From NCBI GenBank assembly GCA_026392215.1, contig JAPLCN010000056.1, positions 1-33,668 of the forward strand: DNA of 33,668 nucleotides, given 5' to 3'. How positions within the stretch are numbered: position 1 is the first letter of the stretch; each line of letters opens with the position of its first letter. The translations under genes were made by a program, and so were the position numbers. A model generated the notes under the pieces. That model was not told the origin of the DNA. It was given only the letters and a program-made list of their open reading frames with translations, and did not search any database. Positions 30,196 through 31,884 of the stretch are shown piece by piece. The DNA is from Actinomycetota bacterium. Its GTDB lineage: Bacteria; Actinomycetota; Humimicrobiia; Humimicrobiales; Humimicrobiaceae.

Positions 30196-31338
30196 ATGGA
30201 AGATATTAATGATCAGAAATTAGTAAAATTAAAAAAAAGACCGTTATCTGTAACATTTCTTGCAATTTACTCATCCGCTTATATTATTGCCCTATTGATA
30301 ACCTTGACAGGGGTAATTGACTTTATTGATTTTTTATACGGATTTTTAATTATTTCATCATTTTTTGGAATACCATTATTTATAGTATCAATAATTCTTT
30401 TATTCATTAATTTCCGTCATAATAAGCGCAGAACACGGGGGTTTGGCATAAGTGCAGCGATCTGTTTATTGATAGTTCCTCTTGCTTTTTTATCATTAAC
30501 GTTTTTTAAAGACGGTCTTGCAAAGGCTGATAGTTATATGCTTAAAAAAAACTATGCCGCAGCAATAAAATATTATGAGGATGTCATAGAAAACGAAGAT
30601 GACCCTGGGATAAAAGATATTGCAAAGTCTGGCAAACTAAAGGCACAGAAATTTATAGATGAAGCAAAACGACAGCAAAAAGCAGGTGATATTTTTTATG
30701 ATTATGAATTATATAACCGTGCTGAAGAAAAATACAAAAAAGCATATGAAATTTACCCATTTCTTGATGGAATCAAAAAAAACATAGATATTGCTATTAC
30801 CATGAAGGAAAAAACAAATAATTTTACAGGTAAAGCTAATTATATACTTTTTAGTGATAAACTTAAATTCAATTATACTTCAGATCTACCTATAAAGTGG
30901 GGCAGTATAAAAGTATCTTCGCCGTACCTTGCAGAGTTTCAAAATATTTCCTTCCAAAAGAATAAATTTTTTGAAAGTGAAAATGAGCTAAAAGTCTCCG
31001 GAGTAATATATGGTAAGCCTGAAATTGCAGATTTTCTTGAATCGGAAAAAGGACTTTTTGTCTTCATATCTGCTGTAATTATAAGCGAATCAGGAGAAAT
31101 AAAATGGGAAAAAGACGGTTATATAAAAGGAGATACACCTTATTTGAAAGAAGGAGAGTTTAAAGAGTTTTCACTTATAAGCCCTATAATTAAACCTATT
31201 GAATCCAAAGACAGCTTGATTTTAATTGCATATGTAAAAAGAAACATAATAATTTTAACAGATTCTGAAAATCCTAACAATCATAATGCTTTAAAAAATA
31301 TTTTTTCATTTTATACGGAAAAAGGTATTAAAATTTAA
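30196..31338 (+). CDS. membrane protein with TPR-like helical region, function unknown
   Basis: A 380-residue protein with three predicted membrane helices (about 20-42, 47-70, 84-104). A helical stretch with TPR character follows (about 108-205; AKADSYMLKKNYAAAIKYYEDVIE and FYDYELYNRAEEKYKKAYEIYP). The C-terminal part (about 210-380) is beta-rich, and its LKVSGVIYGKP and YLKEGEFKEFSLISP resemble an FxLYD-type domain. I do not recognise a family. It is alone in its unit. TATAAG ends 9 bases before the ATG and no Shine-Dalgarno is present, so the message may be leaderless. Confidence 0.75.
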   Translation: MEDINDQKLVKLKKRPLSVTFLAIYSSAYIIALLITLTGVIDFIDFLYGFLIISSFFGIPLFIVSIILLFINFRHNKRRTRGFGISAAICLLIVPLAFLSLTFFKDGLAKADSYMLKKNYAAAIKYYEDVIENEDDPGIKDIAKSGKLKAQKFIDEAKRQQKAGDIFYDYELYNRAEEKYKKAYEIYPFLDGIKKNIDIAITMKEKTNNFTGKANYILFSDKLKFNYTSDLPIKWGSIKVSSPYLAEFQNISFQKNKFFESENELKVSGVIYGKPEIADFLESEKGLFVFISAVIISESGEIKWEKDGYIKGDTPYLKEGEFKEFSLISPIIKPIESKDSLILIAYVKRNIIILTDSENPNNHNALKNIFSFYTEKGIKI

Positions 31339-31367
31339 TTGACAATTACCAGTAAGGCTGATACTAT
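31339..31367 (+). promoter_or_regulatory. strong sigma70-type promoter after the membrane-protein gene
   Basis: TTGACA, exactly 17 bases, TACTAT, beginning directly after the stop codon of the preceding gene. No protein-coding frame follows for about 500 bases, so it probably drives a small RNA. Confidence 0.6.
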
Positions 31368-31373
31368 ATGGTT

Positions 31374-31553
31374 AATTCTTAGAAAAGAAGGCAACGATTA
31401 GGATTAACAGAAATTTCAGACGAAAGAATGTAAAAAGTATGTTAATTTCAAAATAGTCCTAAGAAAAGTTCTAGGAAGAGACCCCAAGATGTTAAGTAAC
31501 CTAAGGTCTTAAGACTAAGACGATGGTAAAAGATAACTTGGGGTTTTTCTTTT
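31374..31553 (+). ncRNA. candidate small RNA of about 180 nt
   Basis: A promoter (31339-31367) and an intrinsic terminator (31491-31553) frame an interval without a usable reading frame. It folds into at least three local stems: GUUAAU near 31371 with AUUAAC near 31417; CCUA-GAA with UUCUAGG (about 31458-31475); and the terminator stem. No match to a riboswitch, SRP RNA, tmRNA, RNase P RNA or the closed-end 6S layout was recognised. Confidence 0.5.
31491..31553 (+). terminator. intrinsic terminator of the candidate small RNA
   Basis: ACCCCAA (31491-31497) pairs with TTGGGGT (31538-31544), and GTTA (31501-31504) with TAAC (31534-31537) across a three-base bulge. TTTTTCTTTT follows. The apical part contains the self-complementary GTCTTAAGAC. 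Confidence 0.75.
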
Positions 31554-31884
31554 GCCTGCTTTTTCTTATCAAGAACAATTACTTATCTTAATTTAAAAAA
31601 AGTGTTCCAGTTGCTTCTATGTAGTTTTAGCTATTTACCACGTGTATCGGTCATAAAATCTCTGCGATATCCGAATAATCCCCTTGTAGGAATAATAAAC
31701 TAAAGTCATGGAGCCGAAAATTTTCATATATGGTTTAAAACATTAATAAGAAGTGTATTTGAAAGTAAATAAAAAAGCTGCACGTGTTAAATGAACAGGA
31801 ATAAGGTATTATTAGAAAAACATTTGCTTTATAATGGCATTATAATGTCAAATTATGCGTCCCCCTGACACTTCTACATAAAAA
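31554..31884. other. intergenic region upstream of rlmD
   Basis: No gene recognised. The 15-bp palindrome TATAATG-G-CATTATA at 31830-31844 contains -10-like hexamers and may be part of the rlmD promoter. No good -35 is visible. Confidence 0.4.

Follow-up and report, generated by a model that had tools for sequence, protein, structure and literature searches.

The stretch of DNA that was analysed (33,668 nucleotides, hereafter the window) carries at 31339-31553 a putative promoter, a small structured RNA and a terminator, this segment being one among six copies found in its own genome (G000). Comparison of the copies from related genomes shows that the unit is conserved as such, from predicted promoter to predicted terminator, and that its secondary structure covaries. 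These data make it moderately probable that the unit is an independent, multicopy gene for a compactly folded sRNA which would act in trans with a protein partner.

The features of the window copy are listed in Table 1. As described in an earlier note made from the sequence of the window, a TTGACA-N17-TACTAT promoter is located at the stop codon of the preceding gene: the -35 box (31339-31344) immediately follows the TAA of an ORF at 30196-31338 and is separated by 17 nt from the -10 box (31362-31367). This 380-aa ORF, whose stop codon abuts the -35 box, had no Pfam match at E 0.001, and neither tRNA nor tmRNA was detected in the window. Transcription is predicted to start near 31373-31375. 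The strong terminator that the same note had placed ca. 180 bases downstream was also recovered, with a stem in which ACCCCAAG (31481-31488) pairs with CUUGGGGU (31537-31544) and which is followed by TTTTTCTTTT up to 31553; a simple terminator scan misses it because the loop limit of the scan is 8 and the hairpin is long. The view that the interval is structured and non-coding was borne out as well, with a folding z of -3.5 (2 of 200 dinucleotide shuffles fold as well) and no ORF conserved across the copies. An mRNA for a small protein was rejected, the longest ORF having a median length of 13 aa, with 9 of the 96 copies showing one of 30 aa or more.

Table 1. Predicted features of the window copy and its downstream flank (positions are those of the window)
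Feature	Position	Strand	Support or remark
Sigma-70-type promoter, TTGACA-N17-TACTAT	31339..31367	+	Position and sequence conserved in relatives
Small RNA, model match	31374..31553	+	Covariance model, 158.5 bits; BLASTN copies in own genome
P1, 5' strand, pairs with 31469-31476	31377..31384	+	8/8 pairs change on both sides (A2)
P1/P2 asymmetric internal loop, 5' side (4 nt versus 8 nt)	31385..31388	+	
P2, 5' strand, pairs with 31458-31460	31389..31391	+	3/3 pairs change on both sides (76-copy alignment)
P3/P4, 5' strand, pairs with 31440-31448	31401..31409	+	All 8 pairs with two-sided changes
P5 hairpin	31416..31431	+	Covariation (A2)
GAAA tetraloop of P5	31422..31425	+	GAAA in 90/96 full-length copies
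P3/P4, 3' strand	31440..31448	+	A2
P2, 3' strand	31458..31460	+	76-copy alignment
P1/P2 internal loop, 3' side, AAGAAAAG	31461..31468	+	Among the most conserved unpaired bases
P1, 3' strand	31469..31476	+	Covariation (A2)
P6, 5' strand, terminator stem, pairs with 31537-31544	31481..31488	+	
Receptor-like motif, 5' strand, CCUAAG	31500..31505	+	Motif as in PMC3494683 and PMC11381326
Receptor-like motif, 3' strand, GAUGG (canonical UAUGG)	31522..31526	+	
P6, 3' strand, and U tract of intrinsic terminator	31537..31553	+	T-rich ends in relatives
Decayed typA/bipA relic, 63 bp, not part of the RNA	31637..31699	-	84% identity to typA of G000:C3

Taken alone, the promoter match of the window is no better than chance, since 18 promoter-like sites were observed in this AT-rich region for 17.4 expected. 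It rises above chance because its position and sequence are conserved across the copies. Among the 96 copies for which 60 nt of upstream sequence were considered, 80 have a site of at least 9/12 that ends 3-6 nt before the start of the model, versus 1.4% of 2060 random windows taken from the same loci; at 10/12 the corresponding figures are 62 of 96 copies and none of the 2060 windows. At the other end of the unit, at least 6 T are found in the last 10 bases of 93 of the 96 full-length copies.

BLASTN matches were obtained in 32 of 61 genomes, that of the window included, and every one of these belongs to the same family. The six copies of the own genome were recovered at 71-100% identity, and one of them (C171, locus L094) has an altered 5' part and is devoid of a good promoter. 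A covariance model, R1, built from an alignment of 34 copies chosen from the BLASTN loci (A2, from which the promoterless L006 was left out), detected the RNA in 34 of the 35 genomes of the family, presumably Ca. Humimicrobiaceae; the lack of conservation in close relatives, which the earlier note had named as an argument against such an RNA, was not observed. The sole family genome with no match, G013, is 79% complete; it is also one of five CsrA-bearing genomes, a coincidence that may be due to chance in an assembly of this completeness. When the fetched stretches were searched again, 103 matches were counted overall, with 1 to 10 per genome, and the 96 that are at least 150 nt long were taken as the full-length set, in which some copies with altered 5' or 3' parts are kept in the counts. 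The matches outside this set are L099 (34.0 bits, no good promoter), which is probably due to chance, L168 and L169, which are weak or partial, and four further short matches, namely L124 and L164 (both from contig ends), L165 and the match at 5788 of L103.

Across a sample of 396 genomes of the phylum, R1 run with stricter filters found the RNA in 33 genomes, all in the family. The 396 genomes were also scanned with a core-motif pattern and 27 genomes were searched with a further model, R3; outside the family and one genome of a sister family (see below), no credible match was found in the phylum sample. A pattern scan of named species genomes returned 23 stretches, all from MAGs, that are labelled Actinomycetota, Actinobacteria/Actinomycetes, Ca. 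Humimicrobium, Ca. Hydromicrobium or, for two of them, 'bacterium'; in the taxonomy, Ca. Humimicrobium falls within Ca. Humimicrobiaceae, class Ca. Humimicrobiia, and these labels suggest that this is the family of the window.

The number of copies is variable, and in genus g7 several copies are truncated and the extra ones have integrase, toxin-antitoxin, NERD and plasmid-type genes in their vicinity, which suggests that extra copies have been gained and lost in this genus. Variable copy number and such a neighbourhood are also what a mobile-element repeat would display, whether as the RNA of a transposon end or as the attachment site of an integrase. We nevertheless consider this origin very unlikely, since two copies occupy unchanged chromosomal sites across genera, since the truncated copies break, as judged by eye, at differing places and not at a single crossover site, and since neither BLASTN against 50,697 records of phages and 72,556 of plasmids nor the same pattern scan of viral contigs gave a match. 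A phage or plasmid origin was rejected on the latter grounds.

Some local arrangements of the copies were recorded. At L155 (G033:C159, 370-2690), a Gp49-like toxin/XRE antitoxin pair is flanked by two RNA copies, one with an insertion in P5 and the other with an altered 5' arm. At L164 (G012:C333, 1-908), the RNA copy and a tyrosine recombinase gene are convergent, the gene terminating on the 3' end of the copy. Two copies lie close together on one contig at L098 (4224-4877) and at L103 (3990-5876), and one copy of each pair is a divergent subtype in which P1 is extended and has a different sequence.

Two chromosomal locations are recurrent. Site A, which was found in 22 genomes, has a copy that precedes ilvE in the same orientation with a gap of 27-414 nt, and these ilvE-side copies mostly have either lysE and bacillithiol genes or mnmA as neighbours. 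At the second conserved site, a copy is divergent from tyrA and next to aroA and cmk (15 genomes), and eight genomes have both the ilvE-side and the tyrA-side copy. The position at site A is that expected of a cis-acting leader or attenuator, riboswitch-like and ancestrally belonging to ilvE, and in three of the 22 genomes, with gaps of 27, 57 and 150 nt, no ilvE promoter was recognised by pattern. In the other 19, however, a promoter-like sequence occurs between the RNA terminator and ilvE; the copies divergent from tyrA do not suit a leader of ilvE, and no antiterminator pairing was apparent by eye. An ORF of 90 aa or more could be seen downstream of 92 copies; it has the orientation of the RNA in 49 of them and the reverse orientation in 43. 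The downstream gene not being consistently on the same strand, a cis leader was rejected, and we give the ilvE version of it a very low probability. The even orientation of the downstream ORFs, together with the separate ilvE promoters, argues for an independent gene that would act in trans. At site A loci such as L060, L064, L095 and L100, the ilvE promoter-like sequence just past the RNA terminator takes the recurrent form TTGCAA-N17-TANAAT.

The history of the window copy can be partly read from its flank. Over 31330 to 31553 it is 94% identical to the copy on C3 of the same genome, and past the RNA unit the two flanks align over 63 bp alone (31637-31699). The gene concerned, typA, is intact beside the C3 copy and decayed downstream of the window copy. 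The simplest reading would be that the RNA and its flank were duplicated together from the typA-side copy, and that the flank then decayed while the RNA unit was kept. In a tree of 99 copies, most site B and window-type copies group together and the site A copies are split into several groups; because its deep branches are poorly supported, no order of duplication was concluded.

The RNA is predicted to fold into two side-by-side domains, a long 5' arm with a GAAA tetraloop at its tip and the 3' terminator hairpin. When the relatives were aligned in search of covarying stems, as had been proposed in the earlier note, 29 of the 39 pairs of the structure were found to have changed on both sides in A2, where 92.8% of cells are paired, and none of 500 shuffles reached either the share of paired cells or the number of two-sided pairs. 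Sliding the partner by 1-3 columns made the paired cells fall to 23-56%, a comparison that favours the structure over the slid versions since it was partly read from the consensus of the same alignment. In a second alignment fitted to the structure (A4, 76 copies, the number also included in the larger model R2), 95.0% of cells are paired and 28 of 33 pairs have two-sided changes. Every pair of P1, P3, P4 and P5 has a two-sided change in A2, P3 and P4 being less regular (83.8 and 88.5% of cells paired, respectively), and one P5 pair of the window copy is a T-T mismatch. On the given strand, 148 G-U cells are counted versus 22 A-C cells (93 versus 17 without three wobble-rich pairs), an excess which fits transcription of the plus strand.

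Conservation is also marked in the unpaired parts of the 5' arm. The lengths of the P1/P2 internal loop, 4 and 8, are each kept in 82 of 90 copies, and the sequence of its 5' side is shared with the sister-family version described below, which has also kept the internal-loop region formed by AGGAGGCAAC opposite CCUGAGAAAAG. AGUA and GAA, found on opposite strands of both arms, are presumed here to resemble loop E motifs. The 5' strand of P2 lies inside the AGAAGGCAAC segment, for which most copies read AGGAGGCAAC. As the latter is Shine-Dalgarno-like and conserved beyond the family, AGGAGG(C/U)AAC might pair with the anti-Shine-Dalgarno of 16S rRNA and the RNA would then bind ribosomes and titrate 30S. 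This appears improbable, because the segment is partly engaged in P2, where it covaries with a CCU partner, and because the window copy reads AGAAGG.

In the 3' domain, the copies have in common a motif, CCUAA(A/G)...NA(U/A)GG, that resembles the receptor of GAAA tetraloops. A relaxed receptor pattern is matched by 86 of 96 copies versus 9% of 1920 dinucleotide shuffles, and the exact 11-nt receptor by 18 of 96 versus 0.1% of the shuffles. According to PMC3494683 and PMC11381326, the 11-nt receptor consists of CCUAAG and UAUGG with a bulged U, and a form in which an A of the platform is changed to C is also known. The variation observed in the present copies is of the same kind: the bulged U is often A, some copies have CCUAC, the outer pair is U-A for C-G in 4 of 90 copies, and the window copy has one changed position, GAUGG for UAUGG. 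In 88 of 90 copies the receptor is offset by 19 nt from the base of P6, while the P7 tip varies from 6 to 16 nt, and the apical loop of P7 has many sequences among the 96 full-length copies and is free to vary. The GAAA loop is closed by C-G in 81 copies, U-A in 5 and U-G in 4. Overall, a GAAA loop and CCUAAG...UAUGG-like sequences are found at fixed geometry. This fixed offset, the receptor-type variation and the joint absence of both elements from the sister-family version make it likely that the GAAA loop docks into the receptor-like motif.

The sister-family version was detected in G035, which belongs to another family of the same class, as an R2 match with an E of 5.1e-4 within that genome; it scores 44.6 bits with R3, a model that itself includes the G035 sequence. 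It comprises TTGACA-N17-TATTAT, P1, CAGGAGGCAAC, CCCUGAGAAAAG and a terminator, folds at z -5.1, and has in place of P3-P5 a short hairpin with a UUCG-containing loop. Neither a GAAA tetraloop nor a CCUAA receptor was found in it, so that docking, if it occurs, cannot be essential to the oldest function. The core pattern GGAGGCAAC-N15-45-CCTGAGAAAAG was found in one of the 396 genomes (G035) and cannot match the copies of the window's family, in which the gap is longer. This version is represented by G035 as a single genome, and four further genomes of the same class, from a third family, gave no credible match. An R2 match in G037 (third family, E 0.065) falls, on visual inspection, within an open coding frame and was regarded as fortuitous. 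Two weak R2 hits were also left uncounted, one in G034 that is a truncated 5' half and one in G003 that is probably due to chance.

The earlier note had suggested a covariance-model search of Rfam and had left the choice between a new class and a highly diverged known one. The search returned nothing at gathering score for the window and, up to E = 10, only chance-level matches for the window copy and two relatives. Titles of the literature on Humimicrobium and Hydromicrobium included none on small RNAs, and the discovery papers on structured ncRNAs were covered by title. On the basis of Rfam and this title-level search, the RNA is apparently undescribed and its family absent from Rfam. A new class is thus the branch of the alternative that gained support, from the lack of an Rfam match, the conservation within the family and the abundant covariation, and a diverged 6S RNA is the branch that did not. 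In 6S, the 5' and 3' ends are joined in a single long hairpin that has a central bubble; here, as noted earlier, there is no such pairing between the ends, which sit in the two domains. The RF00013 model had no match to this RNA, and a diverged 6S is unlikely since a separate 6S gene scores above the Rfam cut-off in 26 of the 35 genomes, including that of the window (G000:C2:33992-34177). SRP RNA was rejected in the same manner, RF00169 giving no match to this RNA and a separate SRP RNA being present in 30 of 35 genomes. A sponge of the CsrB/RsmZ type was also discarded, as CsrA occurs in five of the 35 genomes and one of these is the sole genome without the RNA.

The main rival to a protein-bound RNA is a sibling family of antisense sRNAs, in which redundant copies control shared mRNAs as do the Qrr- and LhrC-type sRNAs. 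It would account for a small RNA with its own promoter and terminator that is present in several similar copies per genome, and some conserved bases, AGAAAAG and CAAC, are indeed unpaired. Most conserved bases, however, are located in helices, in the tetraloop, in the receptor-like motif and in internal loops, and a long unstructured conserved seed is not apparent. Hfq was found in none of the 35 genomes, while the control genomes were positive, which led us to reject an Hfq-dependent base-pairing sRNA and also weighs against antisense siblings at large. Overall, we regard this alternative as unlikely.

The protein-bound, trans-acting RNA favoured here would be in keeping with the compact fold, with the conservation of the internal loop and with a promoter that is both strong and uniform. 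Such an RNA would be transcribed from its own near-consensus promoter, after which the GAAA loop would dock in the receptor of the terminator hairpin and the 5' arm would fold back on the 3' arm, a fold-back that may be likened to that of P4-P6 of group I introns. Its action in trans would consist in offering the conserved internal loop between P1 and P2 to a protein partner, which is favoured over the exposure of an antisense seed, and RNA polymerase or the translation apparatus would be the candidates first in line. A more elaborate scenario is put forward tentatively and is itself rather doubtful: this would be a new RNA class in which the terminator hairpin also acts as the tetraloop receptor and docking of the 5' domain couples completion of the compact fold to termination, the resulting particle, encoded by several genes in each genome, serving as a scaffold or sink for a protein in Ca. 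Humimicrobiia, with the P1/P2 loop as the older core and the docking module acquired or lost as a whole.

A structured RNA that is multicopy, present throughout a family and absent from Rfam suggests that a regulatory or housekeeping RNA has gone unrecognised in a class of actinobacteria that is mostly uncultured. With the covariance models, it can be annotated in metagenomes and metatranscriptomes. The GAAA/11-nt receptor contact predicted here provides a sharp and cheap structural test; contacts of this type are uncommon, with 4 of 78 loop-helix contacts in known structures according to PMC3494683.

Several known systems offer partial parallels. Sibling sRNA families (reviewed in PMC4211561) likewise have several related copies per genome, whereas the present RNA is compact, has no recognisable seed and occurs where Hfq was not found. 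Like 6S RNA (RF00013) and mycobacterial Ms1, it is small and folded with its own promoter and terminator, and a protein-bound regulator is the working idea in its case too; unlike them, it has no long hairpin closing its ends, is multicopy and has no Rfam match. CsrB/RsmZ-type sponges are multicopy and contain GGA, two traits found here as well, but this RNA has one GGA-rich segment, which is partly paired. A GAAA tetraloop with an 11-nt receptor is known from the class I c-di-GMP riboswitch. The same pair is shared by P4-P6 of group I introns, by the group II zeta-zeta' contact and by the RNase P specificity domain, according to PMC3494683 and PMC11381326. No homology of this RNA to P4-P6, group II introns, the RNase P domain or the c-di-GMP riboswitch was seen, and it differs from all of these in that the receptor-like motif is located in the terminator hairpin of what appears to be an independent small RNA.
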